A stretch of DNA of 64,000 nucleotides from Deltaproteobacteria bacterium (GTDB lineage: Bacteria; Desulfobacterota; Binatia; UBA9968): positions 1 through 64,000 of the forward strand of contig JACQUW010000107.1 of assembly GCA_016210115.1 (NCBI GenBank). Direction: 5' to 3'. The notes below the pieces were generated by a model. The model did no database searches, was not told the origin of the DNA, and saw only the letters and a program-made list of their open reading frames with translations. Of this stretch, positions 1-36,328 are shown one piece after another. The position numbers were made by a program, and so were the translations under genes. Numbering within the stretch: the first letter of the stretch is position 1; each line of letters opens with the position of its first letter.

Positions 1-114
1 ATTTAGGCTTGAGCGGGCTGCACTGGCTGTGCGAATGTTGGAACGGATGGAAACAAACATTCCAATAAAACCGGCAAACGCTGAGTTCTGTGTGAAGGAA
101 AACTTCACGATCAT
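1..114. other. window edge, gene identity unresolved
   Basis: Two readings compete and neither gives a recognisable protein. On the minus strand an ATG at 114 overlaps the stop of the FAD subunit as ATGA and stays open for 38 codons to the edge. That is the layout expected for the next gene of the operon, but the residues do not match the start of a 2Fe-2S or molybdenum subunit of the xanthine dehydrogenase family. On the plus strand a frame open from base 2 runs to a stop at about 163 and would overlap the FAD subunit tail to tail. Confidence 0.2.
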
Positions 115-1004
115 TCCCCCAAAGCCGTATTCCACGCATCCCGGAGGGCTCGCCTGATCAAGACTCTTATGAGATCCAGACGGAACTCTCTTTGCGCGCG
201 CCATGAGCTCCGCGGCTCTGCCTCGCTGCAAGCGATCTCGGCCGCCTCCTCGAGAGCCTCATCGGTGAACGCATGCCCGCGCAGGAGCGCCTCCGCTTTC
301 GTCGCTCTAAGGGGCACGGGCGCGCTGCTTCCCAGAGCTATCTTAACGTCTCGAAAAGCGCGCCTCTCTTTGTCCACACTTACGAAGGCGCCGACCCCGG
401 TCGTCGTCATGTCCATAGAATGGCGATCATGAAACTTGATGTAGACTCCGCCGCTCGCCGCGGGCTGAGCCGGCACCTGAATCGCCGTCAACAGCTCCTC
501 AGCAGATCTAACGGTCTGCTCGAATTTAAGGTAGAAATCCTCCACGGGGACCCACCTCTCGCCCCGCCTGCTCTCGAGCTTTACCTTTGCTCCCAGAACA
601 ATCAACGCCGGAGGGAAGTCCGCGCACGGCAGCGCTCCAGCGAGGTTGCCGCCGATTGTAGCCACTTGCCGAATCTCCGGACTTCCCATTTCATTGGCGA
701 CCTGAAAAAGGAGATTGCATTTCTCGCGAACGATCGCAGAGGATTCGATAGCGTGAATCGTCGTCATGGCGCCAATAACGAGATTTCCACCGGCCTCCTC
801 CCGGATAAAAGCCAGCCCGGAGATGCCCTTCAGTCCGATAACGTAGCGCGGAGCGATCTCTCGCCGGCGCATCTGCAGGATGAGATCGGTGCCGCCCGCG
901 AGCAAACGCGCCTCCCCGCGATATTCGGCAAGGGCGTCACACGCCGCGGCGACGCTTTGGGGCGCCAGGTACTCAAATCTGGGCAGGCGCCGGAGATACC
1001 CCAT
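111..1004 (-). CDS. FAD-binding subunit, xanthine dehydrogenase / CoxM / HcrB family
   Basis: A 297-residue protein with the length and layout of the medium FAD subunit of molybdenum hydroxylases (CoxM, CutM, HcrB). The pyrophosphate loop LLAGGTDLIL lies near residues 34-43, and the second FAD motif ATIGGNLAGALPCADF lies near 115-130. In the family this subunit passes electrons between the 2Fe-2S subunit and an acceptor while the large subunit hydroxylates or dehydroxylates the substrate; 4-hydroxybenzoyl-CoA reductase and furoyl-CoA dehydrogenase are CoA-linked examples. The ATG at 1004 starts one base past the stop of the upstream CoA ligase, with an AAAGG-like site inside that gene's end. 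The small and large subunits are not in the window and would have to lie beyond the left edge. The substrate cannot be told from this subunit alone. Confidence 0.88.
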   Translation of the reverse strand: MGYLRRLPRFEYLAPQSVAAACDALAEYRGEARLLAGGTDLILQMRRREIAPRYVIGLKGISGLAFIREEAGGNLVIGAMTTIHAIESSAIVREKCNLLFQVANEMGSPEIRQVATIGGNLAGALPCADFPPALIVLGAKVKLESRRGERWVPVEDFYLKFEQTVRSAEELLTAIQVPAQPAASGGVYIKFHDRHSMDMTTTGVGAFVSVDKERRAFRDVKIALGSSAPVPLRATKAEALLRGHAFTDEALEEAAEIACSEAEPRSSWRAQREFRLDLIRVLIRRALRDAWNTALGE

Positions 1005-1005
1005 T

Positions 1006-2421
1006 TTAGCCTTTTATGATCCGCGGGGTTTTTGTCTCGAGACGGGGAAAGGTCCCAGCCGGATGAACTTCAACCGGCAGAGTAACCGTGGCTTTTAGTC
1101 GGATATCCTGTTGCAGCTTCTGCGCAAGCCCGGCGTACTGTTGCTCCGGCACGCCCGGCTCGGCCTCAGCCAGAACAACCACCTGCTCCCCCTTTTTCTG
1201 CAGCCTGTACTCCACCCCAAGTCCTGGAAGGCTCCGGACCGAGGCTTCCACCAACGAAGGATAAAGCTTGATCCCCTTCACAAAAAGAACGTCGTCCGAG
1301 CGTCCCACGGCGCCGCCGACGGCTAACGGAAGGGTCCGCCCGCAGGGACAGTCGGCATGCTCGTCGATGCGGAGATAATCGCCGACCAGAAATCTTACCG
1401 CCGGCATCCCGTAGCGACCCAAAGCGGTAACGCAAGTAGTTCCCGGCGCGCCTGCGGGAGCGGGCTCAAGAGTCTCAGGGTCGAGCAGTTCCACGATGAA
1501 GTAATCGATATTTACGTGGTCCGAAACGGGCGTCATATCAGCTTGAGCTTTGCAGCTAAAAAGAATCGGGCCGCTGGTCTCTGTGACGCCGAGAATATCG
1601 TGAATTTTGGCATTCCAGCCCTCTGACAGCAGACGATTGGTGGCCGGGACGCAGGCGCCCGGTTCGGCGGCGAGCGTTAAAATGCTCATGCCTAAATCGG
1701 CGGGATTTATGCTCAGCTCTTTTGCCGCCTCCATCTGCCGGATCGCGTAGGTCGGGGTGGAACAGAGAAAAGAAGGCGCGGTGCCGGCAATGTTTCGCAT
1801 GAGCTGAATCCAGGCTGTCGTGGGTAAAGTTCCCTTCGGCACCACCTGGCAACCCATAGCTTCTGTGGCGGCAAAGCAGAGCCAGAAACCGATGAACGGC
1901 GGAAAGCCGAATGAAAAAAAGCCGCGCCATCCGGGTCTCACTCCATGACCGTAAAGAGAACGCGTGTAGAGCAAGATCCCGTTCTCCCAGTCCTGGCGCG
2001 TATCGAGCCAAACCCTCGGCCGCGCCGTGGTGCCGGACGTTTGCCAATACTTCAGATGTTCGTTCGGCGGGCTCGTGGGCGCAGTGCCAAACGGAGGATG
2101 CGCCGCCTGGTCCTTTTCAAAATCATACTTGGTCACAATCGGAAGCTTCGGCAGGTCCGCCAAAGTTTTTACATCCGAAGGCCGGACCTTCTTGCTGTCC
2201 CAGAGCTCACGGTAGAACTGCGAGCGCTCGTAAGTAAATGAAAGGAGAAACCGCAGGCGCTGGAGCTGGATTTCCTTTATTCGTTCGAGGGGAATCGTTT
2301 CAACGCCGCACCAGAATGTGTCAGAAGCCGGTCTTGAACGATCCCCTTCATCGAGGATCTCGGGTCCGACGCGTTCGCCGACCATTCCGTCAGTCCAGAT
2401 ATATCCAATCCGTGCGCGCAT
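1006..2421 (-). CDS. PaaK-like AMP-forming acyl-CoA ligase
   Basis: A 471-residue member of the phenylacetate-CoA ligase (PaaK) branch of adenylate-forming enzymes. Family marks are the phosphate-binding loop WQTSGTTARPRVW, the A5-like segment DILGVTETSGP, the late GDYLRIDE motif and the cysteine pair in DCPCGR. The C-terminal subdomain starts after VGRSDDVLFVKGIKLYP. Members of this group activate aromatic or related acids (phenylacetate, benzoate-like, coenzyme F390) to CoA thioesters or adenylates. The ATG at 2421 is preferred over the upstream one at 2472 because a GGAGG site lies about ten bases before it. It sits between the FMN-fold protein and the FAD subunit, all one way, which fits a CoA-dependent pathway. 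The substrate is inferred only in outline (a carboxylic acid). Confidence 0.85.
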   Translation of the reverse strand: MRARIGYIWTDGMVGERVGPEILDEGDRSRPASDTFWCGVETIPLERIKEIQLQRLRFLLSFTYERSQFYRELWDSKKVRPSDVKTLADLPKLPIVTKYDFEKDQAAHPPFGTAPTSPPNEHLKYWQTSGTTARPRVWLDTRQDWENGILLYTRSLYGHGVRPGWRGFFSFGFPPFIGFWLCFAATEAMGCQVVPKGTLPTTAWIQLMRNIAGTAPSFLCSTPTYAIRQMEAAKELSINPADLGMSILTLAAEPGACVPATNRLLSEGWNAKIHDILGVTETSGPILFSCKAQADMTPVSDHVNIDYFIVELLDPETLEPAPAGAPGTTCVTALGRYGMPAVRFLVGDYLRIDEHADCPCGRTLPLAVGGAVGRSDDVLFVKGIKLYPSLVEASVRSLPGLGVEYRLQKKGEQVVVLAEAEPGVPEQQYAGLAQKLQQDIRLKATVTLPVEVHPAGTFPRLETKTPRIIKG

Positions 2422-2618
2422 ATTTGTTCTACCTCCGTTTTCCGAGAGCGGCGTGGCAAAACTTCCGCCCATTTACAAATCAAACGATTGTCACAACGAC
2501 TCCGCAGGTCCTGGACCGGGCATACGAAGCGATTTTATCGCCGTGCGGGCAAATCGTGGCGCCGGCGCCGCTCAGGGGATCGCTCGCCCGCACCCGTTGT
2601 CCACCCCTCGATGCCCGA

Positions 2619-3011
2619 TTACCCGGCTTGAAGCGTCTCTCCAGCCTGCGCAGGTGAAAGGATATCAATTCGATCGACGAGCAGGCGGACCACCGCCTTC
2701 GGAGGACGCGGAAGTCGCTCCCGCAGCTTTTCGAATATCGGACCGGACTGATGGACTTCCGCCTGTCCCACAAACCGGTACCCCTCTCTTTTTTCCCAAT
2801 CTATGGCTGCGATCGTGATGCGCTGGTCCCGCTGGACGTTCTCAAGGTTATGCTTGCCGACAAATTCTGCAAAAGCCAGACTTTCATCATCATAGACCTG
2901 CGTGGAAGCTTTAGGACCAATGTTCGCCGAGCCATCTGCGTTCACGGTGGCGAGCACCTTGGCGACGTCACGCCGGGAAACGAAGTCTACGAGTGTCTGC
3001 GGTATTTTCAT
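2619..3011 (-). CDS. pyridoxamine 5'-phosphate oxidase-fold (FMN-binding) small protein
   Basis: A 130-residue protein of the split-barrel flavin-binding family. It begins with the typical MKIPQTLVDF helix, followed by VAKVLATVNADGSANIGPKA and a central HNLENVQRDQRITIAAID strand pair. Proteins of this size are usually homodimers binding FMN, or less often F420 or heme, and act as flavin reductases or electron carriers. The start at 3011 has an AAGGAG site eight bases upstream, and only 11 bases separate it from the molybdopterin enzyme. A role as electron-transfer partner of the operon's oxidoreductases is inference. A gap of about 200 bases to the CoA ligase downstream holds nothing recognisable. 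Confidence 0.8.
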   Translation of the reverse strand: MKIPQTLVDFVSRRDVAKVLATVNADGSANIGPKASTQVYDDESLAFAEFVGKHNLENVQRDQRITIAAIDWEKREGYRFVGQAEVHQSGPIFEKLRERLPRPPKAVVRLLVDRIDILSPAQAGETLQAG

Positions 3012-3022
3012 AACAGGCTCCT

Positions 3023-5560
3023 TCAGTAATCCTTATAGACTTTCACTTCCACACAGTGATCGAGGGCTGTAGAGATCTTGTCGATGTGGTTTAGGTCCGT
3101 AGGAAGAAGAGAGTTGAAATTCACGCCTTTTCCCATGGCGATAGGCATCCCGGGCGCCCAGTGGCCAAAGTGCCCGCCGATGCCAACGGCCTGCGGATGA
3201 ATGCATTGGGTCAGCCTGGCCTTGGCCCTGACTTTCCGCACCGGAGATTCCAACCACACGTCATCGCCGTCACGGATGCCTTTGGTCTTCGCGGTATCCT
3301 CGTTGATGAGAATGCTGTAGGCCTCCGTGTTCTCGCAGATTTCGTTGACCCAGGGATTCTCGTTGCCGTAGGCCCCGTAAACATAGGGAAACTTGTAGTG
3401 AACCGCGATCAGATCGTATTCTCCCTTTTTGGTGGCCTCGTACGAAGGGCAAGGCATCCATTCGGACAGAGGCACATAGTCGGAGTAATCCCAGTCCAGT
3501 CCCATTTGCCCGGCGACTTTTTTCAGTTCCTCTCCCCGCTGCAAGAAGTGCTCGAGATAGATCGGGAGGCGCGCCTGCAGGAAAGGACCTATGTAGGCCT
3601 CGTCCACGTCTCTCGGAATTCGAATCAGCCCGTGCTCCTGAAACCACTCCAGCCCATGTTCCTCTCCGAACCAGCCGCGCGCCATCCGGTCGATCACCTC
3701 GTTTACGGAATAGCGACGGCCCGCCTCCAACGCGTGGGGAGCTTTCAAGCGGAAAGCGTGATTTAGAAGGCGATAGAAGTCGTCGAGAATGCCAATCCTC
3801 TCGGCGACCTCCATGATCACCTCCTGGGGATGTCTCATGCCCGAAGGCGGCTCGATAGCGGGTTGCCTCACCTGCCAGAACCAATCGTCTTTGCCGCACG
3901 GCGGAATGAGCAGGCCGGTCCCCGCGACAAAATCGAAACGTTCGAGATACGTGGGAAACGGAAAAATGATATCGTCAAAGAGGTTTGTCTCGTTGATCTC
4001 TATCGCGAAGCCAGCGATGAAATGCATCGATTGGTAAAATGCTTCGACTTTTTTGAGATCGCCGAACGAGCCTAGAACAGAGTTCGTGGGCGCGTGGATC
4101 ATCACCTCGATTCCATAGGACAGCCCGTAACGCTTTGCGTCTTCGGAAGTGATGGGTAAAAGCGTGTGAAAATGGGGCGCCAGGGGAAAAAGTTCGGCAA
4201 GATCCATCCGTACCGGTTGAGTCGGAGTGCGGCCGGGAAATGCCTTCGGATGGGGGAGCGGCAATACGTGTCCTCCGTCTTCCAACAACCCGTCGAGGCC
4301 GCCGTCCGGCCACCAGAGAAAGGGTTTTTTCCCCGCAGCGGCCGTGCTCAGGATGCCCCCCGGAACGTTCACTGCGCCCATAACGATGTTCACGAGTTTA
4401 AGGGCCCAGGACTGGTGAAATCCGTGCTTGTGCCCTTGTGGGCCCTTGGCCCAGTCCACACACACCGGCCGGTGCGGAAGCTCCACGCCGTCGATGGTAA
4501 TCGTCGCGCCCACACGAGCCGCCTCGCCGAATTCCCGCGCGATTCGCCTTAGCGTCGCGGCCGGAACCGTCGTTATCTCCTCCACTTTTTCCGGCGGATA
4601 CTGCGCCACATGTTCCCGCAGAAGCTCAAAACCCGGTCGTGCTTTGAGGCCTTCCAACTCATAGGCGCCGGTGATGGCCGGTTCACGAAGCGTGGGATCA
4701 TCGTGGGCCTTGACGGTGTTGTCTGCGGCGTCGTAGATCATCGGTTTTCCCGATTTCGGGTCACGAATGTAACGTCCCTGCCCTCCCACCAGGTAGGGAG
4801 CATTGGTCCTGTGCTGCAGAGCCTTCGCGTCATAAACGCCCAATTCGTTCAGCAGCACATGGAGCATGCCCAGCGCAAACGCCGAGTCGGTCCCGGGCCG
4901 GATCGGCACCCACTCATCGGCTTTGCTTGCGGCGAACCCGCCGATCGGATCGACCACGATCAGGCGCATGCCGCGCGCGCGAGCTTCGGCCATATCCAGC
5001 GCGATATGATTGAACGAGCCTCGCGCCGAGATCGCGAACTGAGTTCCCACGAGGATGCAGTAGTTGCAGTAGTGAAGATCCGGCTGTTGATGAAAACCGC
5101 CGCCGGAGAAAAATTCCACCGGATGAATAACCTTGCCGCAAGTGGGCGAAGCGTTGCCCATAAGATGCGGCGTGCCGAACGCGCTGCCGAAAGCCAAGAG
5201 CCAATAGAAATTATCTCCGACAACGTCCCAGGCTTGAATATAGAGCTTTTGGGGCTGATCCTTGATTTCCAGAAGGTTCGCCCCGACCGTTGCAAGCGCC
5301 TCTTCCCATGAGATTTCCTGCCAGCCGGGATCGACGTAGAGGCCTTTTTTGGGATTCGTGCGCTTGAGCGGCTTTTTCACCCGATGCGGGTTATAGGGGT
5401 TCATGATTCCGGCCTTGCCTTTAGCGCACATCTTGCCACGATTCTGAGGATGGTTCGGATCGCCTTCGATGGCGAGGACCCTGCCGTCCTCCACCAGAAC
5501 CCGAACGCCGCACCCGACGTAACACATGCCACAGGCTGTCAAGATCCACTCGGACTGCAT
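3023..5560 (-). CDS. molybdopterin (bis-MGD) oxidoreductase, DMSO reductase superfamily
   Basis: An 845-residue catalytic subunit of the molybdenum/tungsten bis-MGD family. From the upstream ATG at 5566 the N-terminal [4Fe-4S] motif is C12-x2-C15-x3-C19-x27-C47. C143 in SPTCGKV is the likely metal ligand, as in cysteine-ligated members. The C-terminal cofactor domain (dinucleotide-binding barrel) carries ENTEAYSILINEDTAKTKGI. No twin-arginine signal is seen, so it is probably cytoplasmic. The ATG at 5560 is preferred because the GAGGGGGG ribosome site is about six bases before it, whereas it touches the ATG at 5566. The stop of the MoaD-like gene overlaps the 5566 ATG. No iron-sulfur or membrane partner lies alongside. 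It cannot be assigned as formate dehydrogenase, thiosulfate reductase or acetylene hydratase from motifs alone. Confidence 0.9.
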   Translation of the reverse strand: MQSEWILTACGMCYVGCGVRVLVEDGRVLAIEGDPNHPQNRGKMCAKGKAGIMNPYNPHRVKKPLKRTNPKKGLYVDPGWQEISWEEALATVGANLLEIKDQPQKLYIQAWDVVGDNFYWLLAFGSAFGTPHLMGNASPTCGKVIHPVEFFSGGGFHQQPDLHYCNYCILVGTQFAISARGSFNHIALDMAEARARGMRLIVVDPIGGFAASKADEWVPIRPGTDSAFALGMLHVLLNELGVYDAKALQHRTNAPYLVGGQGRYIRDPKSGKPMIYDAADNTVKAHDDPTLREPAITGAYELEGLKARPGFELLREHVAQYPPEKVEEITTVPAATLRRIAREFGEAARVGATITIDGVELPHRPVCVDWAKGPQGHKHGFHQSWALKLVNIVMGAVNVPGGILSTAAAGKKPFLWWPDGGLDGLLEDGGHVLPLPHPKAFPGRTPTQPVRMDLAELFPLAPHFHTLLPITSEDAKRYGLSYGIEVMIHAPTNSVLGSFGDLKKVEAFYQSMHFIAGFAIEINETNLFDDIIFPFPTYLERFDFVAGTGLLIPPCGKDDWFWQVRQPAIEPPSGMRHPQEVIMEVAERIGILDDFYRLLNHAFRLKAPHALEAGRRYSVNEVIDRMARGWFGEEHGLEWFQEHGLIRIPRDVDEAYIGPFLQARLPIYLEHFLQRGEELKKVAGQMGLDWDYSDYVPLSEWMPCPSYEATKKGEYDLIAVHYKFPYVYGAYGNENPWVNEICENTEAYSILINEDTAKTKGIRDGDDVWLESPVRKVRAKARLTQCIHPQAVGIGGHFGHWAPGMPIAMGKGVNFNSLLPTDLNHIDKISTALDHCVEVKVYKDY

Positions 5561-5562
5561 AA

Positions 5563-5871
5563 TCATCCCCCCTCGAACATGGGCAGCATGATGATCTCTA
5601 AGTCGCCTGCATCCAACGTTGCTGCCAAACCGCCGATCTCCTTAATGTTCCGGCCGTTTAAGAAAATCACAATCGAGTGTTCGATGCCGCCTGACTGGTT
5701 CAGAACACGAGAGACAAAGGGTTCTCCGTAGCTATGGCAAAGCGATTGAATGAGGTCACCGACTGTGCTTCCTCGAGGCAGAACCATCCGTTGATCGGGC
5801 TTTCCCATGACGGCCCGTAGATCACCCATAAATCTGATTCTGACGGAAATTTGGGCTAGATCCTTGGCCAT
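5563..5871 (-). CDS. MoaD/ThiS-like ubiquitin-fold sulfur carrier
   Basis: About 102 residues from the ATG at 5871. The open frame extends upstream to 6030, but the extra residues have no family character. The beta-grasp pattern IRFMGDLRAVMGK..GSTVGDLIQSL..VIFLNGRNI ends in the exact C-terminal Gly-Gly that is adenylated and thiocarboxylated in MoaD and ThiS. Such proteins donate sulfur for molybdopterin or related cofactors, or serve tungsten/molybdenum enzymes locally. It overlaps the start of the molybdopterin oxidoreductase as ATGA, so the two are probably translationally coupled and a dedicated cofactor role is likely. No strong ribosome site is seen at a usual distance before 5871, so the start is uncertain. 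No matching MoaE or MoeB is in the window. Confidence 0.75.
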   Translation of the reverse strand: MAKDLAQISVRIRFMGDLRAVMGKPDQRMVLPRGSTVGDLIQSLCHSYGEPFVSRVLNQSGGIEHSIVIFLNGRNIKEIGGLAATLDAGDLEIIMLPMFEGG

Positions 5872-6042
5872 AGCGTGTTGGTCATTTCTCCAAAAGATCC
5901 CCTGGGCAGCTTGGTCGAAGGGTGGCTTCCCTCCGGAACGTGCGTTTCGATCGCAGCCAAGCCCTACGGGATCGCAAATTTCAAAGGGCAAATTTGAAAT
6001 CTGAGATTTGTCATCTGCAATTCCTCGCACAGCGAGGACTTG

Positions 6043-7503
6043 CTACATCTGGAACCAAACGGTTTTCGTTTCGGTGTAGAGAGGGAGCACCTCCTGACCG
6101 AATTCCCGCCCGAAGCCGCTTTGCTTAAAGCCGCCGAAGGGCGCCATGACGTCCAGCGCGCCGTAGCAATTCACCCAGACGCTCCCCGCCTTCAGGCGCC
6201 GGGCCGCCCGGTAGGCTTTCTTCATGTCTTTGGTCCAAAGACCGGAAGCCAGACCGTAAAACGTGTCATTCGCCTTTTCGATGACTTCATCGAATTCTTT
6301 AAAAGGAATGATGGCCAGGACCGGACCGAAAATCTCTTCCCGGGCAAGCTTCATGCGATTGTCCACTTCATCAAACACCGTCGGGTTTAAGTAATACCCT
6401 TTTTTCATCGGCGGGCGGTCTCCGCCGAGAATCAGTTTTGCCCCTTCTTTTTTTCCTTCTTCGATATACCCGGTGACCTGCTGGAGTTGCGTTTTGGAGA
6501 TCAACGGCCCCATTTGCGTTTTCGGATCCATCGGGTCCCCTACCGTCCAATCTTCCCGGACATGACGCAGAAGCTTTTCCAAAAACTCATCGTGCACCTT
6601 CTCCTCGACGAAAACGCGCGAGCCGGCCCAACAAATCTGTCCCTGGTTAAGACAGAAGCCCTTGGCGGCAAAAGTCGCGGCAGCTTCCAAATCGCCATCG
6701 GCAAAAACGATGTGAGGAGACTTCCCGCCCAGCTCAAGGGAGATCCGCTTAAGCGTCGCCGCCGCTTTTTCCATGATGATCTTGCCGGTCACGGTCTCGC
6801 CGGTGAAAGAGACCTTGTTCACATCCGGGTGCGTCACCAGCCGCGTTCCAACCGAATCACCCGGCCCGGTCACCACGTTGTAGACCCCTTCAGGGAGCCC
6901 GGCGGCCTGGCAAATTTCCGCGAACTTCAAAGCGGAAAGCGGAGTCCAACTCGCCGGTTTGTGTATGAGTGTGTTCCCCATTGCCAACGCCGGCGCGATT
7001 TTCATCAGCGAGAGAATAAGAGGGGAGTTCCAGGGAGTAATGATGGCGACGACCCCGACAGGCTCTCTCAGCGTGCAGGCAAGAGCGCTTTCATCCGTGG
7101 GGAGGGTCGCGCCATAGAATTTGTTGGCCCAGCCGGCGTAATACCGCAGGAGATCCACTGCAAAGGGCACGTCTCGCGTCCGGGTAAATGAAAGTGGTTT
7201 TCCCGTATCGAGACTTTCGACCAGCGCAAGCTCCTCCGCCTGCTGTTCCACCACTTCCGCAATGCGAAAAATTTTCTTTCCGCGCTCCGCAGGTTTCATG
7301 GCAGCCCAAGGCCCCTGCTCAAAGGCTCGACGGGCTGCAGCGACGGCGAGATCTGTTTCCCGTTCACCCGCCTGGGGTACCTGGGTAATAGCCTCTTCGG
7401 TCGCGGGATTGACGGTTGCGAAATAACGGGCCGATTCAGGCTCGATCCATTTGCCGTCGATAAAAAGTTTTCTCGGCTCTGCAATCTTTTCTGCAAACGT
7501 CAT
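6043..7503 (-). CDS. NAD(P)+-dependent aldehyde dehydrogenase
   Basis: A 486-residue classical ALDH-superfamily enzyme, full length. The catalytic general base is Glu257 in ELGGKSP and the nucleophile is Cys291 in GQICWAGSR. The cofactor-binding segment is VVAIITPWNSPL with FTGETVTG. Family members oxidise an aldehyde to the acid using NAD+ or NADP+. The start has a strong GGGGGAGGGAG ribosome site directly upstream. It lies between the fused iron protein and the MoaD-like gene, with a 118-base gap on its upstream side that holds an inverted-repeat array. Together with the CoA ligase it could oxidise an aldehyde and then activate the acid; this order is inference. Substrate preference cannot be read from sequence. 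Confidence 0.92.
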   Translation of the reverse strand: MTFAEKIAEPRKLFIDGKWIEPESARYFATVNPATEEAITQVPQAGERETDLAVAAARRAFEQGPWAAMKPAERGKKIFRIAEVVEQQAEELALVESLDTGKPLSFTRTRDVPFAVDLLRYYAGWANKFYGATLPTDESALACTLREPVGVVAIITPWNSPLILSLMKIAPALAMGNTLIHKPASWTPLSALKFAEICQAAGLPEGVYNVVTGPGDSVGTRLVTHPDVNKVSFTGETVTGKIIMEKAAATLKRISLELGGKSPHIVFADGDLEAAATFAAKGFCLNQGQICWAGSRVFVEEKVHDEFLEKLLRHVREDWTVGDPMDPKTQMGPLISKTQLQQVTGYIEEGKKEGAKLILGGDRPPMKKGYYLNPTVFDEVDNRMKLAREEIFGPVLAIIPFKEFDEVIEKANDTFYGLASGLWTKDMKKAYRAARRLKAGSVWVNCYGALDVMAPFGGFKQSGFGREFGQEVLPLYTETKTVWFQM

Positions 7504-7521
7504 GGCTCCCTCCCCAAGATC

Positions 7522-7610
7522 AGTTCAAGCAGTTCCAACAGTTCAAGCGGTTCAAATGGTTCCGAGATCAACGGATTGAACGGCTTGAACGTTTTGAACT
7601 TTTTGAACCA
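7522..7610. repeat. GTTCAA/TTGAAC inverted-repeat array in intergenic gap
   Basis: Units of GTTCAA recur on the left side and TTGAAC on the right side of a centre near 7565. The clearest arms are GTTCAAGCGGTTCAA at 7541-7555 and TTGAACGGCTTGAAC at 7576-7590, complementary with one mismatch, and further GTTCAA-like units extend both arms. It lies in the only sizeable gap of the operon. It could fold in RNA, where it might stabilise or attenuate the message between the fused iron protein and the aldehyde dehydrogenase, or be a small dispersed genomic repeat. No poly-T run marks it as a terminator. Confidence 0.7.
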
Positions 7611-7621
7611 GTAACGTCTCG

Positions 7622-9376
7622 TCAGCTGTGCTTGTTTACAACCGCCATGATTTCCCGGTTGGAGAGGATCTCGCGGGTAAGCTTATGACGCTCAGAGTTC
7701 TCCCGGAGTCTTTTCGCGAGTTCCATGTAGTGCCTGGCCTGTTCCGACCCGGGGAACGATTCGACCACGGTAGTCCTCAAGTTCTCCGCTGTCTGAACAA
7801 GCTCGCAACGGGGAATATGGTGGATGACCGGTATGCCCACCATCCCAAAAGCCTCCTCGACGATGGCCTCTTCGTTGGGAACCCCGCGCATGTTATTGAT
7901 GACGCCGCCGATCCCCACCTCCACCCCGCGCTGGCCGGCCGCCTGGATGCTCTGGGCGATCTTCATCGCCTGAGTCAGAGAGGCCGCCTCACCGTTGGCG
8001 ACGATGTAAGCCTGGGGGGTGTATTTCAACGGGCGAGCGAATCCGCCGCAGACCGTGTCCCCCAGCACGTCATAAAGAATCAGAGTGAATTTATACTCGT
8101 CCATCAGCCCGTGATCTTCGAAGAGCTTGAGAGCCAGATCCACTCCCTTTCCCGCGCATCCTTTGCCGGGAACCGGGCCGCCGCATTCGGTTCCGTACAG
8201 GCGGCTGTCGTGGTTGACCCCGGGAAATATCAGTTCCTTGAGAATGTCACGATTCATGGCCCGGGCTCCCCCGCGCTTCTGGATCTCGTCCAAGACAGTG
8301 GGCTTCAATCCACCGCAGAGATTGGCAATGGAGTCATGCTTCGGGTCACAGCCGATTTGAAAAATCTTTTCCCCCATGAGCACCATTGCCGCGCTTACGT
8401 TTGCCGACACCGTCGATTTCCCGATTCCACCGGTGCCATAGATGGAAACTCTAAGCGGCTTGGCGCGCTCTACCGTTTTGGGCGGGATTCGGCTCACGTA
8501 AGCCGTTCGTCCTTCCTTCCCCTCTTCTCCGTGCAGCCCCTGAAAACTCAAGAACATCTCAAACAAATCGTCGTAGCTCGCGATAGGAGCCGGGTCTGTC
8601 TTGGGCGCGCCTTGCTCTACGTTTTGCGCCAGTTCGAGAAAAGTAGCGGCAATCTCCGACTCGGGAAGAGTCCTCACGATGGGTCCTCCGCGGCGCTCCG
8701 CTTCCTTGAAAGCGATGGGATCGCGTTTAATAAACGCAAGAATAGGCACGCGAGTTCGGGCAGCGAAGGCCTCGACAATCTCCTTCTCGCGGGGAACGCC
8801 GCGCATGTTCACGACATATCCCAAGACTTTGAGATTGCCACCGACCGCCTTCACCGCCCGGAGAATGTTGTTGCCGGCGTAAATCGCCATCAGCTCGCCG
8901 CTGATAATGATGAGCACCTCTCGGCCGCCGCCGCGGAGTGGAGTCGAGAAGCCGCCGCACACCACATCGCCAATGAGATCATAAATATTGTACTCTACCT
9001 TATCGAAATCCTGGATTTGGGCCTTGTATTTCTTGAGCTCGCCGAAAGCGGTGGGAAGACCTACTCCTGCGCAACCGATGCCGGGCTCCGGCCCGCCGGT
9101 CTCCGTCAGGAGGATTCCCTCCCGGCTTGTCCAAACCGCCTTGCCGATATTCTGCGCGTTGACTCCCTCCTTGCGCTTGAGATCAAGGATCGGGAGAACC
9201 TCTCCGCTCAGATCGTAAAGGTCGATGAGGCTCGATTTCGGGGAACAGCCGACCAGCATGACCTTTCGCCCCTTCTGATGAGCGAGGGCCTCGCCGAGAT
9301 TCGTGGCGACCGTCGTCTTCCCAATTCCACCCTTCCCATAAACGATTAGAAAACGTTGACTGCTCGGCTGGTCCAT
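7622..9376 (-). CDS. tandem-fused nitrogenase-reductase-like iron protein (NifH/BchL/BchX superfamily, two domains)
   Basis: A 584-residue chain with two complete NifH-like ATPase domains (about 1-255 and 306-570) joined by a charged linker. Normal family members are about 270-300 residues and dimerise. Domain 1 has P-loop GKGGIGKT (14-21), cluster cysteines C102 (GIGCAGVG) and C140 (GDVVCGGF), and switch Asp133/Asp137. Domain 2 has GTGGIGKS (314-321), C407 (GKGCAGKG), C443 (GDTVCGGF), Asp436 and Asp440. All four cysteines for a bridging [4Fe-4S] cluster are therefore in one polypeptide. The halves differ at ATPase residues: domain 1 keeps the signature lysine (K15) but has Ser45/Ser49 where NifH has Asp39/Asp43; domain 2 keeps Asp344/Asp348 but has Thr315 in place of the signature lysine. 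It should reduce the adjacent NifDK-like component using ATP. Its start shares a base with the preceding dehydrogenase stop (TGATG). Confidence 0.93.
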   Translation of the reverse strand: MDQPSSQRFLIVYGKGGIGKTTVATNLGEALAHQKGRKVMLVGCSPKSSLIDLYDLSGEVLPILDLKRKEGVNAQNIGKAVWTSREGILLTETGGPEPGIGCAGVGLPTAFGELKKYKAQIQDFDKVEYNIYDLIGDVVCGGFSTPLRGGGREVLIIISGELMAIYAGNNILRAVKAVGGNLKVLGYVVNMRGVPREKEIVEAFAARTRVPILAFIKRDPIAFKEAERRGGPIVRTLPESEIAATFLELAQNVEQGAPKTDPAPIASYDDLFEMFLSFQGLHGEEGKEGRTAYVSRIPPKTVERAKPLRVSIYGTGGIGKSTVSANVSAAMVLMGEKIFQIGCDPKHDSIANLCGGLKPTVLDEIQKRGGARAMNRDILKELIFPGVNHDSRLYGTECGGPVPGKGCAGKGVDLALKLFEDHGLMDEYKFTLILYDVLGDTVCGGFARPLKYTPQAYIVANGEAASLTQAMKIAQSIQAAGQRGVEVGIGGVINNMRGVPNEEAIVEEAFGMVGIPVIHHIPRCELVQTAENLRTTVVESFPGSEQARHYMELAKRLRENSERHKLTREILSNREIMAVVNKHS

Positions 9377-10248
9377 CAGGCGCTTTTCTCCTTTTTCACA
9401 TAGCTGTAGAAACCGGACCCGGATTTTCTTCCCAATCGACCGGCGGCCACCATCTGACGCAGAAGCAGAGAGGGCCGAAATCTCTCGCCGTGAGCCGCGT
9501 GCAGCGATTCCATGGCCGATAAAACGGTCTCCAGGCCAACCAGGTCCATAAGCTCGAATGGGCCCATGGGGTGGTTGTAAGCAAGTTTGCAGGCCTTATC
9601 GATGTCACTCGCGGAGGCGATTCCTTCCTCCAGACAGTGGAGGGCTTCGACGAGATAGCCGTTATAGATGCGGGTTGTGACAAACCCCGTGTAGTCTTTC
9701 TCAACCAGAATGGTTTCTTTTCCGAGGCGGGAGCAAAACTCCTTTGTCTTCTGAATGGTCTCCTCGCTCGTGGCGTAGCCGCGCACGATCTCCACGAGCT
9801 TCATTACGGGCGCGGGATTAAAGAAGTGCGCGCCGATAACCCGCTCGGGATGGCGAGTTGCCGACGCGATCTGCGTAATTGGCAAACCCGTGGTGTTGCT
9901 CGCGAGGACCGCCTGCTCGGAGCAAAGCCTATCCAGGTCGGCGAAGACCCGCCGCTTAAGCGCGAGATCTTCCGGCACCGCCTCGATAACAAAAGACGCG
10001 CCTTCGAGATCCCCGTAATTTGCCGTGAAGCGGAGACGCTTCAGCCACTCCCCGGCTTCTTCCTGTTTGGCCTGTCCCTTCTCCACTGCGCGGGCCGCGA
10101 GCCCCTCGATCGAGGCGCGGCTCTTTTTGAGCAGTTCCTCCGCCACGTCAACCACCACCGTCTCGGCTTCAGTGCGCGAGGCCGCGACAAACGCGATCCC
10201 CGTCCCCATCAACCCGCTGCCGACGATTCCGAGCTTTTGGTAGCTCAT
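9376..10248 (-). CDS. 3-hydroxyacyl-CoA dehydrogenase family protein
   Basis: A 290-residue enzyme of the short 3-hydroxyacyl/3-hydroxybutyryl-CoA dehydrogenase family, full length. The N-terminal Rossmann loop is GIVGSGLMGTG. The catalytic pair is His141 (GAHFFNPAP) and Glu153 (KLVEIV), twelve residues apart as expected, and the C-terminal helical domain has the NHPMGPFELMDLVGLE motif. Members reversibly oxidise 3-hydroxyacyl-CoA with NAD(P)+. The gene is wedged between the NifK-like subunit (ATGA overlap) and the fused iron protein (TGATG overlap), so its translation is probably locked to the reductase subunits. This placement argues that the reductase handles a CoA thioester or a product needing 3-hydroxyacyl oxidation. 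That link is inference. Confidence 0.92.
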   Translation of the reverse strand: MSYQKLGIVGSGLMGTGIAFVAASRTEAETVVVDVAEELLKKSRASIEGLAARAVEKGQAKQEEAGEWLKRLRFTANYGDLEGASFVIEAVPEDLALKRRVFADLDRLCSEQAVLASNTTGLPITQIASATRHPERVIGAHFFNPAPVMKLVEIVRGYATSEETIQKTKEFCSRLGKETILVEKDYTGFVTTRIYNGYLVEALHCLEEGIASASDIDKACKLAYNHPMGPFELMDLVGLETVLSAMESLHAAHGERFRPSLLLRQMVAAGRLGRKSGSGFYSYVKKEKSA

Positions 10249-22654: not shown

Positions 22655-25600
22655 CTACGGCTTGCGGGCACCGCCGGAGCTCACTGCCGCCTGACCGCTC
22701 TCGTCGCTGCTTCCCCTCCTCAGGTAGGACACGACGCCGTGAACAGCTCCCAACATCCGGCGTCCGAAGCTAACGGACGGCTCCTCAGCCTCTCCAGCCC
22801 GGCGCGACTCGCAGACCGCCGCCAACTGCCCCAGCGTTTGGAACACCAGTTCCCCCGGACCAATCCGCACGCCCAGTTGTTTTTCTAACCTTGTGACCAC
22901 CTGCAATGACAAAAGTGAATGGCCCCCGAGATCGAAGAAGTTATCGCGAACGCCCACGCCATCGATCTGCAATAGCTCCTGCCAGATGCCGGCGATCAGC
23001 AATTCCACCTGGGTGGATGGCGGCTCATAAGTCTCCGCCAACGCTGGCCTGGTCAGGTCGGGGGGCGGCAGCGTCCTCCGGTCCAATTTACCATTGGGCG
23101 TAAGCGGCAGCGCCGCCAGGAAAACGAATGCAGAGGGAAGCATATGGCCGGGGAGCTTTTTCCTGAGGAAATCCCGCAGCTCATCAGTCGTCAGGAAGGG
23201 CTCACCCATAGTCCGGAGCGATCTCACGTCCGCGCGCCTTGCACCGGCTGCCGGCGCACTCTCCGGAGACCGCCGGATCGCATACACATAACAAAGAGGC
23301 GTGTTCTCAAGCAGCGGATCCTGCTCCACGAAGGACTCAAAACCCTCGCGCTCGAGCATGCCCAGGATAATCTGCAATTTCTCCTGGACATCCACCTCCA
23401 GGACGACCTGTTTGATTTTTTTCCAATCATCGCCCTTGATTCCGGTGAGCACATCCAGCTCGCTTTTTTCGACGTTGATTTTCAGCAGATCGATACGATC
23501 GATGCCTTCCTGCTCGATGACGCCGGAAAGAGTTCTCAACTCGGTGGAAAATGTCGTCGAGGAAAACCGTTCGTCGAGGATGCCATCGATGCCGTCTATC
23601 GGCCCAGCGATGCCGATCTCACCGGCTTTTTGCCGGTTCCGGACGAACGCCTTGACCACCTCTTTTTCTGACTGCGGATCGGCATGAAAACCCGAGAGTA
23701 TTGAAAACCCCGGGAAAAACGTGAAAGAAGCTGTCCCCGCCTCGTGCGACAATCCGCAATGAAATAATCTCGCGTCGCGAGCATAGAGCGAAACATTGGC
23801 ACTCAGGATCTCAAAAGCGAAGGGATTGGGCTCGAATGCGTATATCTTGGCGTCCTCAGAAACCTGCTTCACGAACAGCGCAAACAAGCCGATGTTGGCG
23901 CCGACATCGAATACGCAATCGCCGTCCTGAATAGTGATCCCATGCCTGAGATACGCCTGGCGTTCGAATATCTCCTCGTATAGATAATCCGTCTCATGCT
24001 TGTTCAGGTGGGCGATCCCCATATTGTTTGGCAGCCTGTAACGTTGCCTGCCGGCAATGAAAGCCGCTCGATGGGGGCCGGGAACAACGTAGGCGACCAG
24101 GCGTTTTTCCCCGGGGCCGTCATCGCGAATCGACACGGCGGCCCCTTGAATATCGGGGTGTTGGGCGAGGGCCGCTTCGACCTCGCCAAGCTCGACGCGA
24201 AAGCCGCGGATTTTGACCTGATTATCGATCCGCCCGATGAATTCGACGTTGCCATCCGGCAGCCATCGCGCCATGTCTCCGGTCCTGTAAAGGCGCGCTC
24301 CGCTTTCTTTGCTGAAGGGATTCGGGACGAATTTCTCAGCGGTCAGATCGGGCCGGTTCAGATAGCCGCGAGCAAGACTGGCGCCGCCGATGCACAACTC
24401 ACCGGACGCGCCGATCGGCACCGGTTCGAGGTTTCGATCGAGGAGATAGATTTGCACGTTGCCGATGGGACGGCCCAGAGGAATCAGCGGGCCTTCGGGG
24501 ACGCGCCCGGTTTCCCCCATCCGGTATGTCAGGACACCGACAGTGGCTTCGGCCGGCCCGTAGTGATTGAGAATAGCGCAGTTGGGCGCCAGCGCCTGCA
24601 GGCTCTCAACCCACGCGGTCCGTGAGGGCTCACCCCCGAGGACGAGCAGCCGGCGCGGCAAAATGTTTTCCGAGCCTGCCGATCTTTGCCATGCCGCGAG
24701 ATGAGAGGGAACGATCTTAACACAATCGATAGAATAGAGGCCAAAATACTCTGCCATGGACCGGGGATCTAAAGCCCGCTCCTGAGAAATCACGTGAAGA
24801 CATCCGCCGGTGCATAAGGAAGAAAAAACCACGGTATTGCCCAGATCGGCGGCAATTGTCGAAACCATTGCAAAACCGGCACCCTCCGGGAGAGCCATTC
24901 TCTCAAGAATCCCGTTTAGATAATTCGTGAGTTGTCGGTGTTCCACCGAGACTCCCTTGGGCAATCCGGTGGATCCCGAGGTGTAAATGACATACACGAG
25001 GTTCTCAGAGATGACCCCGCTGTCCACGTTCCGGTTCTTCTCCCGCGTGATAAGATCCCAATCCGCGTCAAGGCAGACAACCCGGGCGTGACAATCGATG
25101 AGTCCTTCGCTGAGCCGCTTTTGGGTCAACAGGACCGGCGCCTGAGCGCTCTCTAAAACGAAATTCACCCGCTGCGGCGGATCTGAAGGGTCAATAGGGA
25201 CGTAGGCCCCTCCCGCCTTGAGAATACCGAGCAACCCCACCAGCATGTCCAGCGAGCGCTCCAGATAAAGGCCCACCAGGACTTCTGGTCCGACACCGAG
25301 CGCGCGCAAGTAATGCGCCAGTTGATTGGCGCGCCCGTTTAGCTCGGCATATGTGAGTTGCCGTCCCTCATAGGCGACAGCGATGGCATCCGGCGTGCGA
25401 TCGGCCTGGGCTTCGAATATTTGATGCACACATCGATCTTCAGGATAAACCCTCTCGGTATGATTCCACTCCAAGAGCAGACGTTGTCGCTCGGCGGCTG
25501 TGAGCAGCGGCAGTTGAGCTAAGTGGCACTGAGGGTTGGCAACCACGCCTTCAAGCACGCTCCGCAGGTGACCGAGCATCCGCGTGACAGTCGCGGCCTG

Positions 25601-26830
25601 AAAACGGCGACGGTCGTACATCATGAGCAGTGAGAGCTTGAATCCCGGCAGGATTTCGATGCCCAGGGGGTAGTGAGCCCAATCGAAGCCGCGTACGGAC
25701 ACGACCTCCGGAATTCTGGCGTTTTGCCTCGCGGCTTGAGCCGCGGAATTCTCAAAAGCCAAAATGCTTTCAAAAAGCGGCCGGCCCGTGGCGACCTCAC
25801 TCCATCTTTGAATCTCATTCAGCGGCGTGTAATCGTATTGGCGCACCTGGGCCTGATGCGACTGAAGATCCGTCAGCCAGGACAACAACGAGGATCTATC
25901 CGGTACCCGTACCCGCAAAGGCAGGGTATTGATAAACAATCCAACCGTTTTGTCGATTCCGCCGAGGCTGGAGGGACGACTGGAGACGGTCGCTCCGAAG
26001 ACAATGTCCTGCTCGCCGCTATAACGGCTCAAGAGTATAGCCCATGCGCCCTGAACCACCGAGTTTAGCGTCAGACGATGCTGCCGCGCGAAGGCTTGCA
26101 AGCCAGCTGTCGCTGCTTCGCTCAACCAGACCTGCTCCTTTGCGTAGACCTCTTCTCCAGAGGGAAGCTCATTCGATGACAAATCCACTCCGAACGGAGT
26201 CGGAGCGGTAAAGCCCTTCAGCTCCTCGCGCCAGAAAATTTCAGCCGCTTCTAAGCTTTGCTCCTGAAGCCAGATAATATAGTCCCGATAAGGACGCGGG
26301 CGGTCCATGGCGACTGCGTCGCCCCGAGAAAACGCTTCGTAGAACGCCCACACCTCCTGCAGGAGCGAGAAGCTGCACGATCCATCCATGATCAAGTGGT
26401 GGAAGCTCCAGAGGAAGTGGTGGATGTCCTCTGCTCCTCGAGCGAGGACCCACCGCATCAGAGGCGCCGTCGTGAAATTGAACCCGCGCCGCGCCTCGGC
26501 CTTGAGACGGGAGTCGATCTCCCTCTCCTGTTCGCCCGGCGACAGCGAGCGCCAGTCCTGCTGCTCCACCTCGACTTCCACGCGCCGATGGACTACCTGC
26601 AGCGGCTTTTGCAGTTCCTGCCAATGAAAAGAAGTTCTCAGAGCCGGGTGCCGATCCATCACGTGCTGCCATGACCGAAGAAAAGCCGAGACGTCCAACT
26701 CACCCCGCAACGTATATCCCAACCGAATGCAGTATACGCCGGACTCCGGCGCATCCAGACTGTGAAACAGCAGCCCATGCTGCATCGGCGAAAGCTCGTA
26801 GATGTCTTCAATGTCGTCTTGCGCGCGCAT
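22655..26830 (-). CDS. NRPS module C-A(FkbM-MT)-PCP, aspartate-type pocket
   Basis: A 1391-residue NRPS. The condensation domain (about 8-440) has HHLIMDG near 143 and a SPMQHGLLFHSL opening like C domains that accept a D-configured donor. The A domain core (about 465-895) has YTSGSTGLPKG and NHYGPAEAT. By-eye alignment to GrsA gives the pocket D-L-T-K-V-G-H-V-G, one change from the published Asp code DLTKVGHIGK. Between A8 (KIRGFRVELGEVE) and the C-terminal subdomain (NGKLDRRTLPPPD) sits an FkbM-type methyltransferase (about 915-1150; VFDVGANIGLF, YAFEPNPFAFE). The PCP carries DNFFDLGGHSLLSLQ (about 1300). There is no thioesterase or reductase after it, only a short basic tail. As the last assembly-line protein it probably adds Asp, which the inserted domain may methylate (inference). 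Confidence 0.93.
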   Translation of the reverse strand: MRAQDDIEDIYELSPMQHGLLFHSLDAPESGVYCIRLGYTLRGELDVSAFLRSWQHVMDRHPALRTSFHWQELQKPLQVVHRRVEVEVEQQDWRSLSPGEQEREIDSRLKAEARRGFNFTTAPLMRWVLARGAEDIHHFLWSFHHLIMDGSCSFSLLQEVWAFYEAFSRGDAVAMDRPRPYRDYIIWLQEQSLEAAEIFWREELKGFTAPTPFGVDLSSNELPSGEEVYAKEQVWLSEAATAGLQAFARQHRLTLNSVVQGAWAILLSRYSGEQDIVFGATVSSRPSSLGGIDKTVGLFINTLPLRVRVPDRSSLLSWLTDLQSHQAQVRQYDYTPLNEIQRWSEVATGRPLFESILAFENSAAQAARQNARIPEVVSVRGFDWAHYPLGIEILPGFKLSLLMMYDRRRFQAATVTRMLGHLRSVLEGVVANPQCHLAQLPLLTAAERQRLLLEWNHTERVYPEDRCVHQIFEAQADRTPDAIAVAYEGRQLTYAELNGRANQLAHYLRALGVGPEVLVGLYLERSLDMLVGLLGILKAGGAYVPIDPSDPPQRVNFVLESAQAPVLLTQKRLSEGLIDCHARVVCLDADWDLITREKNRNVDSGVISENLVYVIYTSGSTGLPKGVSVEHRQLTNYLNGILERMALPEGAGFAMVSTIAADLGNTVVFSSLCTGGCLHVISQERALDPRSMAEYFGLYSIDCVKIVPSHLAAWQRSAGSENILPRRLLVLGGEPSRTAWVESLQALAPNCAILNHYGPAEATVGVLTYRMGETGRVPEGPLIPLGRPIGNVQIYLLDRNLEPVPIGASGELCIGGASLARGYLNRPDLTAEKFVPNPFSKESGARLYRTGDMARWLPDGNVEFIGRIDNQVKIRGFRVELGEVEAALAQHPDIQGAAVSIRDDGPGEKRLVAYVVPGPHRAAFIAGRQRYRLPNNMGIAHLNKHETDYLYEEIFERQAYLRHGITIQDGDCVFDVGANIGLFALFVKQVSEDAKIYAFEPNPFAFEILSANVSLYARDARLFHCGLSHEAGTASFTFFPGFSILSGFHADPQSEKEVVKAFVRNRQKAGEIGIAGPIDGIDGILDERFSSTTFSTELRTLSGVIEQEGIDRIDLLKINVEKSELDVLTGIKGDDWKKIKQVVLEVDVQEKLQIILGMLEREGFESFVEQDPLLENTPLCYVYAIRRSPESAPAAGARRADVRSLRTMGEPFLTTDELRDFLRKKLPGHMLPSAFVFLAALPLTPNGKLDRRTLPPPDLTRPALAETYEPPSTQVELLIAGIWQELLQIDGVGVRDNFFDLGGHSLLSLQVVTRLEKQLGVRIGPGELVFQTLGQLAAVCESRRAGEAEEPSVSFGRRMLGAVHGVVSYLRRGSSDESGQAAVSSGGARKP

Positions 26831-26842
26831 GCGAAGGCTCTT

Positions 26843-35800: not shown

Positions 35801-36285
35801 GCGCTGAAAAGAAGATAACGCTCCTCCGCCGAACGGTTGAACAGACGGACGCGCACCATCGGTCCTCGTTCCAAATCGAAAGGCTGGTGAGCTTCCGTAG
35901 TGAGGCGCGCGTGCAGCGTCGGTTCGCTCCAAGCGGTCGCGTCGATCTCTTCAAAATCAACGGCCATGGACGAGTGGATCCGTTGAACGGGTTCCCCTTG
36001 GCGCGAAAGAAATGTCGTCCGCAAAGCGTTATGACGATCGAGAAGAAGTTGAAAAGCGCTATGTAACGCCGAAACCTCGAGCTTTGATCGGATGCGCGCG
36101 GCAAACAGCACGTTAAAAGCCGCGCTCTCTGGGGCAAGCCGGTGCAGCAACCAGAGCGCCCGTTGTCCGTAGGAAAGAGGAAATTCCTGGGAGTGCGGAT
36201 TCGATGATTCCTGCTGCACCTGCGCCAGGAGCTTGACTTTCTCCTCCGCCGACAACTCTTCAACGGGTTTGTTCGGCTGATTCAT
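32872..36285 (-). CDS. NRPS module C-A-PCP, threonine-type pocket
   Basis: A 1137-residue NRPS. The C domain (about 37-470) has HHIVIDG near 163 and PLSYGQRALWLLHRL at its start, as in C domains that take an acyl or L-aminoacyl donor. The A domain (about 495-985) has YTSGSTGIPKG near 650 and NMYGITETT near 798. By-eye alignment to GrsA gives the pocket D-F-W-N-I-G-M-V-H, identical to the published Thr code DFWNIGMVHK. The PCP has DNFFDLGGNSLLMTR near 1055. The stop overlaps the PKS start (ATGA). It sits between the AMP-ligase starter and the PKS, so it should condense the starter acyl group with threonine. No epimerization domain follows within this protein. Confidence 0.94.
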   Translation of the reverse strand: MNQPNKPVEELSAEEKVKLLAQVQQESSNPHSQEFPLSYGQRALWLLHRLAPESAAFNVLFAARIRSKLEVSALHSAFQLLLDRHNALRTTFLSRQGEPVQRIHSSMAVDFEEIDATAWSEPTLHARLTTEAHQPFDLERGPMVRVRLFNRSAEERYLLFSAHHIVIDGWSLWICLDELRALYSAARTGTSPTLQAVPQYTDYLRWQTEMLEGPEGSWLWQYWRQQLAGNLSVLRLPTDHPRPSTQTYRGLSHFFRVDGELTRRLKLLSKSVGATLYMTLVAAFQVLLYRYSQQEDILIGSPLPCRNLSEFERVVGYCANPVVLRSNLGGNPTFRSLLRQVRDTVLNALEHQAFPFPLLVDRLQPNRDASRSPIFQVMFVLQRPHHLVKEGLAPFILGEAGARMEFGELTLEALPFPIQQEGQFDLMLNFVEVGESLSASFDYNADLFDAGTVARMEAHLRTLMEGIVSDADERVAQLALLSSQERHHLKASSSRVKSFPQAQRLHEIFEKQVERAPEAIAVSCGPEELSYEQLNCRANQLAHYLMELGVGPEITAAICVERSLDMVIGILAILKAGGAYLPLDPAYPKERLAFMLQDAQARVILTQTDLLRKLPAQGINVIRVDSDRQAIAQRSKDNPASRATPANLAYVIYTSGSTGIPKGVLITHENVGRLFEATKPLFQFNEHDVWTLFHSYAFDFSVWEFWGAFLYGGRLVVVPFETSRSPAELYALLCREKVTVLNQTPSAFRQLMWAQEDLERSGWNLSLRFIIFGGEALDVQRLRPWFERYGHERPRLVNMYGITETTVHVTHRSLETSDARIARPTPIGVPIEDLQVYLLDAYLNPVPIGVPGELFVGGDGLARGYLNRPELTAERFVPDPFGHKPGSRLYRTGDQGRYRPDGTIEFLGRTDHQVKLRGFRVEPGEIEAQLASHPSIREAAVVAREDSPGDVRLVAYVVADEGTASIPGELRVFLKEKLPDFMVPASFVFMNALPLTPNGKLDRRGLPHPDRLTAESEVAGSAPQTELERAIAAIWQEMLHLERVSVHDNFFDLGGNSLLMTRVHGKLKELGLKELSMVALFQFPTISALAGFLAQERSDTPPKPQSNARVEQMREGRERLHNLQRRRSGGKAEKQDP

Positions 36286-36328
36286 GGCTAAACCTTTTGT
36301 TCAGTCAGACGATCGCCCAGCAAGGCGT

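Follow-up and report, generated by a model that had tools for sequence, protein, structure and literature searches.

A natural NifH-NifH fusion with one predicted complete and one degenerate ATP site, encoded in a nitrogenase-like gene cluster of a Binatia genome

The window, a stretch of 64,000 nucleotides, carries on its minus strand a gene for a 584-residue chain of two NifH-like domains, next to genes for NifD-like and NifK-like catalytic subunits and the further genes listed in Table 1. The cluster is cut by the contig end beyond the gene for the FAD subunit. The start codon of the fused gene overlaps the stop of the preceding 3-hydroxyacyl-CoA dehydrogenase (3HCDH) gene in TGATG, with GGAG lying before the start. 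Owing to the start and stop overlaps of nifK, the dehydrogenase gene and the fused gene, the K-3HCDH-HH block looks translationally coupled.

Table 1. Features of the gene cluster, with positions in the window.
Feature	Position	Strand	Basis and remarks
FAD subunit, xanthine-dehydrogenase/4-hydroxybenzoyl-CoA-reductase-type enzyme	111..1004	minus	annotation
PaaK-like (phenylacetate-CoA-ligase-like) AMP-forming ligase	1006..2472	minus	annotation, also in relatives
PPOX-family flavin/F420 protein	2619..3011	minus	annotation
Molybdopterin oxidoreductase catalytic subunit (DMSO-reductase/thiosulfate-reductase type)	3023..5566	minus	annotation, also in relatives
ThiS/MoaD-like small protein	5563..6030	minus	annotation, also in relatives
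Aldehyde dehydrogenase	6043..7503	minus	next gene, same order in relatives
Fused two-domain Fe protein (NifH-NifH), 584 aa	7622..9376	minus	profile match, residue conservation, dN/dS, AF2 model
Domain 2 (H2-type), aa ~307-584	7625..8470	minus	T315, D344, D348, Walker A K320, cluster Cys C407/C443
Domain 1 (H1-type), aa ~8-262	8579..9376	minus	K15, S45, S49, Walker A K20, cluster Cys C102/C140
3-Hydroxyacyl-CoA dehydrogenase (3HCDH)	9376..10248	minus	start overlaps nifK stop (ATGA), stop overlaps fused-gene start (TGATG)
NifK-like catalytic subunit, 462 aa	10245..11633	minus	one clade-invariant Cys, C45
NifD-like catalytic subunit, 500 aa	11652..13154	minus	Cys C41, C67, C130 invariant in clade; without FeMo-co ligands

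The fused protein, for which the sequence-only reading named no strand, is encoded on the minus strand, and the plus-strand translation of 7622-9376 does not yield it. A 573-aa open frame on the plus strand (7628-9349) lies antisense to nearly the whole fused gene and probably results from the codon usage of this GC-rich gene. Between the fused gene and the aldehyde dehydrogenase gene (7504-7621) lie units of about nine bases, with GTTCAA on one side and TTGAAC on the other, which form an imperfect inverted pair of short tandem arrays. An Rfam search of the 64-kb window gave no hits. Farther along the window, at 22655-41366 on the minus strand, an NRPS/PKS cluster contains condensation, adenylation, ketoacyl synthase, FkbM methyltransferase and thioesterase functions, with radical-SAM enzymes beside it.

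Pfam Fer4_NifH (PF00142) matches two stretches of the chain (E 1.2e-123), separated by a linker of aa ~263-306, which confirms the two full NifH-like domains described in the sequence-only reading. Each domain is ~36% identical to Azotobacter vinelandii NifH. The two are 32% identical to each other and so represent an old pair; a recent tandem duplication as their source is rejected on this figure. An AF2 model of the chain, built from a shallow alignment (5 rows across domain 1), is of moderate confidence (pLDDT 81.8, pTM 0.74). Its match to NifH chains extends over a single domain, with a TM of about 0.9 of target length. A viral fold search returned nothing useful.

Measured against NifH, the two domains have lost different residues. 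Domain 1 keeps the signature lysine (K15, NifH Lys10) and has S45 and S49 in place of Asp39 and Asp43, while domain 2 keeps both aspartates (D344, D348) and has T315 in place of Lys10. The equivalents of the cluster ligands Cys97 and Cys132 are C102/C140 in domain 1 and C407/C443 in domain 2. All ten of these residues, which the sequence-only reading had placed correctly, are invariant across four genera. The Walker A lysines are intact in both domains (K20, K320), the equivalents of NifH Asp125 and Asp129 are present in both (D133/D137, D436/D440), two features on which the sequence-only reading was silent, and domain 1 also keeps the Asn185 equivalent. A typical NifH has two equal sites with Lys10, Asp39 and Asp43, unlike the fused chain. 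Across the NifH dimer, the signature lysine extends to the nucleotide of the partner subunit. If the domains pair as in NifH, the losses all fall on one composite site, in agreement with the earlier proposal of one complete and one degenerate ATP site. That proposal also held that the degenerate site lacks both features; the Asp pair and the in-trans lysine are indeed missing, but the site should not be regarded as unable to bind ATP.

Fused homologues with 85-86% identity over the whole length are present in three other genera of the same family. In GTDB these are the MAGs RIFCSPLOWO2_12_FULL_60_19, NC_groundwater_697 and NC_groundwater_353, named 'Deltaproteobacteria', which we take to be Binatia. 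The fused form is rare and was found in 4 of 148 genomes of the class, all four in one family. For domain 1, pairwise comparisons give dN/dS values of 0.034-0.081, and for domain 2 values of 0.032-0.052 (rough figures, with dS near saturation); the linker changes faster than either domain. Both halves of the fused protein are under purifying selection. The same fused ORF in four genomes of different genera, with dN/dS of 0.03-0.08, excludes an assembly join or frame artefact, a danger already named when the gene was first noticed, as well as a pseudogene. An alignment-based GTDB scan recovered the three fused relatives and two single-domain matches, and a scan from a single sequence, with poorly conserved peptides, found none. 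Among the matches listed by tblastn against plasmids, all were below 60% identity and resembled ordinary NifH. No description of a natural NifH-NifH fusion or of a heterodimeric Fe protein was found among the results listed for the literature searched, which takes in few of the subscription journals.

Other long frames turned out to be of different kinds. Those in genomes G275 and G298 are separate genes with in-frame stops between them, and NifH ORFs of ~750 aa are NifH-NifD fusions. The latter join NifH to a nitrogenase-component-1 (NifD-like) domain in chains of ~740-840 aa (L096:1136-3391, L101:1153-3372, L104:2185-4695), with similar lengths in L097, L099 and L100. They come from genomes of two phyla, and most adjoin a NifK-like gene.

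Profile scores were compared for single domains and for the whole chain. Domains 1 and 2 score 200.8 and 220.1 bits with the nifH equivalog model (cut-off 394.35), and 209 and 223 bits with the CfbC model (cut-off 402). The whole chain reaches 419.3 and 428.6 bits, respectively, and passes both cut-offs because two sub-threshold domains add up; annotation pipelines may call the chain 'nitrogenase iron protein' for this reason. The single domains reach 112-180 bits with BchL (cut-off 345) and 120-139 with BchX (cut-off 331), and the ArsA model gives 39.4 bits (cut-off 650). For the D/K partners, the CfbD model gives 19-36 bits against a cut-off of 268. By profile and cluster ligands, the fused chain is assigned to the NifH superfamily; by its single-domain scores it is not NifH, BchL, BchX or CfbC. 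The single-domain scores also support the first impression that it belongs to neither nitrogenase, DPOR nor COR.

In the catalytic partner, Cys 41, 67 and 130 of D are invariant in eight sequences and Cys 45 of K is invariant in nine, which is the DPOR/COR pattern of three Cys from one subunit and one ligand from the other. BchN likewise supplies three Cys from one catalytic subunit, as does D here. The FeMo-co ligands are not present in D, with Thr at the position of Cys-alpha275 and no His at that of His-alpha442. NifB has no hits in the four fused-family genomes, which are 94-100% complete, and has one hit in the genome of a split relative (G171). Since FeMo-co ligands are absent and NifB was not found, D/K should carry one interface cluster and no complex cofactor, and we infer a cluster type as in DPOR or CfbD. 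No radical-SAM gene is among the annotated genes next to D-K-HH. An ordinary nitrogenase or a known nitrogenase-like enzyme is rejected on the single-domain scores, the missing ligands and the lack of NifB hits.

The order of genes in the relatives is D, K, 3-hydroxyacyl-CoA dehydrogenase, fused Fe protein and aldehyde dehydrogenase. Next come a molybdopterin oxidoreductase, which has Fe-S and NrfD subunits, the ThiS/MoaD protein and the PaaK-like ligase. The relatives' cluster also has a molybdenum hydroxylase of the xanthine dehydrogenase family, the alpha subunit of which scores, in one relative, 771 bits with 4-hydroxybenzoyl-CoA reductase (cut-off 995) versus 576 with XdhA. An amidohydrolase, an acyl-CoA dehydrogenase and an enoyl-CoA hydratase come after the cluster in one relative, and a UbiD-family decarboxylase lies upstream of it in another. 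From its gene content, the cluster looks like one for carboxylic-acid/CoA-thioester catabolism. The neighbouring genes point to a CoA thioester, plausibly aromatic or conjugated, as the most likely substrate. Against this, the fused-family genomes carry HGD-D (benzoyl-CoA-reductase/dehydratase-type) proteins elsewhere.

The search of the same phylum found ten genomes with two adjacent, separate nifH-like genes, here termed H1 and H2. NifD/nifK-like genes stand beside the pair in nine of them; in the tenth, the contig stops a short way off. All ten genomes show Ser at the position of NifH Asp39 in the first gene and Asp in the second. Sampling of the phylum of an Oscillospiraceae locus (L052) added further H1-H2 pairs from another phylum, in genome G814, so that the H1/H2 search covered two phyla. 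Two G814 pairs have D/K genes alongside, the products of which share 31-40% identity with their counterparts in the window family; one D/K set has a 3-hydroxyacyl-CoA dehydrogenase 52% identical to that of the window, and the other adjoins an acyl-CoA dehydrogenase and a thiolase-like protein. At the signature lysine, H2 of the G814 lineage has GKAG for GKGG, and the same segment is GTGG in the fused protein. In genome G654, D/K are 37-41% identical to those of the window, and H genes are absent from that contig. Nearby are a member of the benzoate-CoA-ligase family (655 bits, cut-off 375), a dehydrogenase that scores best with the model for 6-hydroxycyclohex-1-ene-1-carbonyl-CoA dehydrogenase (Had-like; 280 bits, cut-off 339), a 3HCDH and an enoyl-CoA hydratase.

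Position 39 is Ser in 13 of 13 split H1 and 4 of 4 fused domain 1 sequences, and Asp in 12 of 12 H2, 4 of 4 fused domain 2 and 56 of 56 unpaired NifH-like proteins. The search pattern for the unpaired proteins allowed any residue at position 39 and only Lys or Thr at position 10, which biases the latter column. Ser at position 43 is confined to fused domain 1 and Thr at position 10 to fused domain 2. Asp39-to-Ser was observed in two lineages, and only alongside an adjacently encoded partner that has Asp. Split homologues, or homologues with Lys and Asp regained in both halves, had been named in the sequence-only reading as evidence against it. Split homologues do exist and have Lys10 and Asp43 in both subunits, but Asp39-to-Ser is present in every H1. 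The idea that the asymmetry arose through fusion is not borne out, as separate-gene H1 proteins already have Ser39 in every pair. The broader result, read from the genes, is that hetero-Fe-proteins with one switch-I aspartate missing are encoded as separate genes in more than one lineage.

The split systems show some further variation. One H1 (L095:7222-8097) has the P-loop GKGSCGKS instead of GKGGIGKS, and by this altered P-loop the degenerate subunit appears to be changing in that system too. The 3.1-Mb genome G814 (L094, L095, L116, L117, L118) has four K-like genes of this type on different contigs and an H1-H2 pair adjoining an aldehyde:ferredoxin oxidoreductase, which suggests several substrates. 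A second H1-H2-D-K family (L041:8142-13442, L045:5272-10962 and other f50/f88/f109 genomes) also has Ser39 in H1, and a MarR-type regulator precedes at least one of its loci.

In the trees, H1 of the CoA-type split systems clusters with domain 1 and their H2 with domain 2, and the stem of domain 1 is the longest branch (1.27-1.30 substitutions per site). In the other split lineage, H1 and H2 are sisters of each other (UFBoot 100); support figures are those of the reduced tree, as the full IQ-TREE tree carries none. The AU test rejects a tree in which all H1 form one clade (p-AU 4.6e-5). By this rejection, the first-encoded copy appears to have changed from Asp39 to Ser on at least two occasions, provided that no shared origin was wiped out by early gene conversion. 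Such recurrence argues for a function. The history with a single origin of Ser39, in which gene conversion homogenised H1 and H2 in the other lineage, seems doubtful but worth keeping in view. In its favour, the genes are adjacent there and H1 and H2 are 55-61% identical in the two pairs compared. It is opposed by the AU test and by the H1 and H2 clades, each with a support of 100, which also speak against ongoing conversion; early conversion in that lineage could nevertheless have taken place. Either history is compatible with the mechanism preferred below. By parsimony, Asp39 would have been lost first, and the fused family would then have lost Asp43 of domain 1 and Lys10 of domain 2 from the same composite site. 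Fusion of separate H1 and H2 genes would have fixed a heterodimer that was already asymmetric.

The reading that best accounts for these data, with a probability of roughly 0.6, is that the fused ORF encodes the Fe protein of a DPOR-like, ATP-driven aryl- or enoyl-CoA reductase with one hydrolysing and one ATP-holding site. The two unlike domains of one chain would fold against each other and hold one [4Fe-4S] cluster between C102/C140 and C407/C443. Pairing within the chain is what we infer, and pairing between chains is also conceivable. At site B, the nucleotide on domain 2 would meet D344/D348 in cis and, supplied in trans by domain 1, K15, a complete site expected to hydrolyse ATP. At site A, the nucleotide on domain 1 would face Ser45/Ser49 in cis and Thr315 in trans. 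Because both Walker A lysines are intact, site A is expected to bind ATP and help to close the chain for docking, with no hydrolysis or very slow hydrolysis. One ATP would thus be hydrolysed and one held per cycle. The reduced, ATP-loaded chain would dock on the NifD/NifK-like partner encoded just upstream. This partner would have no FeMo-co and only one cluster, held at its interface by three Cys of D and one of K, and single electrons would pass to an organic substrate bound on D/K, as in DPOR. NifH Asp39 is presumably equivalent to D40 of MinD. In the same ATPase class, loss of the switch-I Asp in MinD D40A stops hydrolysis (PMC7276532), and the Soj ATPase mutant D44A was crystallised as a dimer (PMC9178275); the structure of Asp39Asn NifH is PDB 1xd8. 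In a linked BchL dimer, both sites have to be occupied by ATP (PMC7948495).

This last requirement bears directly on an unlikely alternative, in which the degenerate half is a regulatory or scaffold domain without nucleotide and all ATP chemistry takes place on domain 2 as a one-ATP switch. The loss of both switch-I acids from domain 1 and its long stem would fit such a role. However, domain 1, which is under purifying selection, retains K20 as well as its counterparts of Asp125, Asp129 and Asn185, and the need of linked BchL for two bound ATP also argues against an empty half. It is similarly improbable that the losses are compensated, with Ser39 tolerated and both sites hydrolysing ATP in a fused but otherwise normal Fe protein. 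Engineered fusions of two identical NifH units can function (PMC13385145), and a replacement that is always Ser could mark a conserved alternative role. Yet Asp39 is invariant in the unpaired proteins collected, and its change to Ser in two lineages only beside an Asp-bearing partner is hard to reconcile with simple tolerance.

The chain might instead be an ATPase that supplies neighbouring enzymes with clusters or metals, in the manner of Mrp/NUBPL or of NifH in cofactor assembly, rather than an electron donor to D/K. NifH does have such side roles, and molybdenum enzymes and a ThiS/MoaD protein are encoded in the same cluster. We consider this highly improbable, since all four bridging cysteines are kept, the gene stands with nifD/nifK-like genes in fused relatives and split systems alike, and the fused-family genomes have no NifB hit.

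The reductase proposed here shares features with several known systems. As in DPOR and COR (BchL-BchNB, BchX-BchYZ), there would be an Fe protein with a bridging [4Fe-4S] cluster, a catalytic pair with no FeMo-co and a conjugated organic substrate. However, BchL and BchX form homodimers, in which the two ATP sites are equal, and the fused chain is proposed to work like the DPOR Fe protein without being DPOR itself. CfbCD of F430 biosynthesis, also nitrogenase-like and without FeMo-co, is the best-scoring single-domain family, but the single domains lie below the CfbC cut-off and the partners far below that of CfbD. ArsA, in a single chain, and heterodimeric ABC transporters likewise combine two related ATPase domains whose sites are unequal, but have neither a [4Fe-4S] cluster nor a NifDK partner. 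The ATP-dependent benzoyl-CoA reductase BcrABCD may do the same job, ATP-driven aryl-CoA reduction, but its families (BadF/HgdC-type ATPase, HGD-D) are unrelated and are not among the genes annotated in the cluster. The methylthio-alkane reductase MarBHDK and the isethionate reductase IsrBHDK, both group IV NFLs, are likewise encoded by nifHDK-like operons in anaerobic metabolism. The H gene of the Mar and Isr systems is accompanied by a radical-SAM B gene (PMC11423573), and Mar works with nitrogenase metalloclusters (PMC12552129); in contrast, H is fused here, with no radical-SAM neighbour annotated, no NifB hit and no FeMo-co ligands. The engineered linked BchL dimer and NifHH/AnfHH also consist of two Fe-protein units joined by a linker (PMC7948495, PMC13385145), but these are designed and have two identical units, whereas the fused chain is natural and has unlike halves.

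Why nitrogenase-type enzymes spend two ATP per electron, and whether both sites have the same task, are questions difficult to approach with symmetric homodimers, where any single substitution alters the two ATP sites together; telling them apart took an engineered linked dimer (PMC7948495). Evolution seems to have supplied an Fe protein with one complete and one crippled site. The split relatives would represent an earlier stage, with only Asp39 lost, and the fused form a later one, with Asp39, Asp43 and the in-trans lysine lost; such a natural series of stages brings the sites' division of labour within reach of direct tests. A more tentative possibility is that the nitrogenase scaffold here supports an ATP-driven aryl-CoA (dearomatising) or enoyl-CoA reductase of a new class, with no relation to the benzoyl-CoA reductases known so far. 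Its natural hetero-Fe-protein would keep one ATP as a structural latch and hydrolyse only the other, at a cost of one ATP for each electron rather than two. For an aryl-CoA substrate, this would amount to a further oxygen-independent route to dearomatisation.
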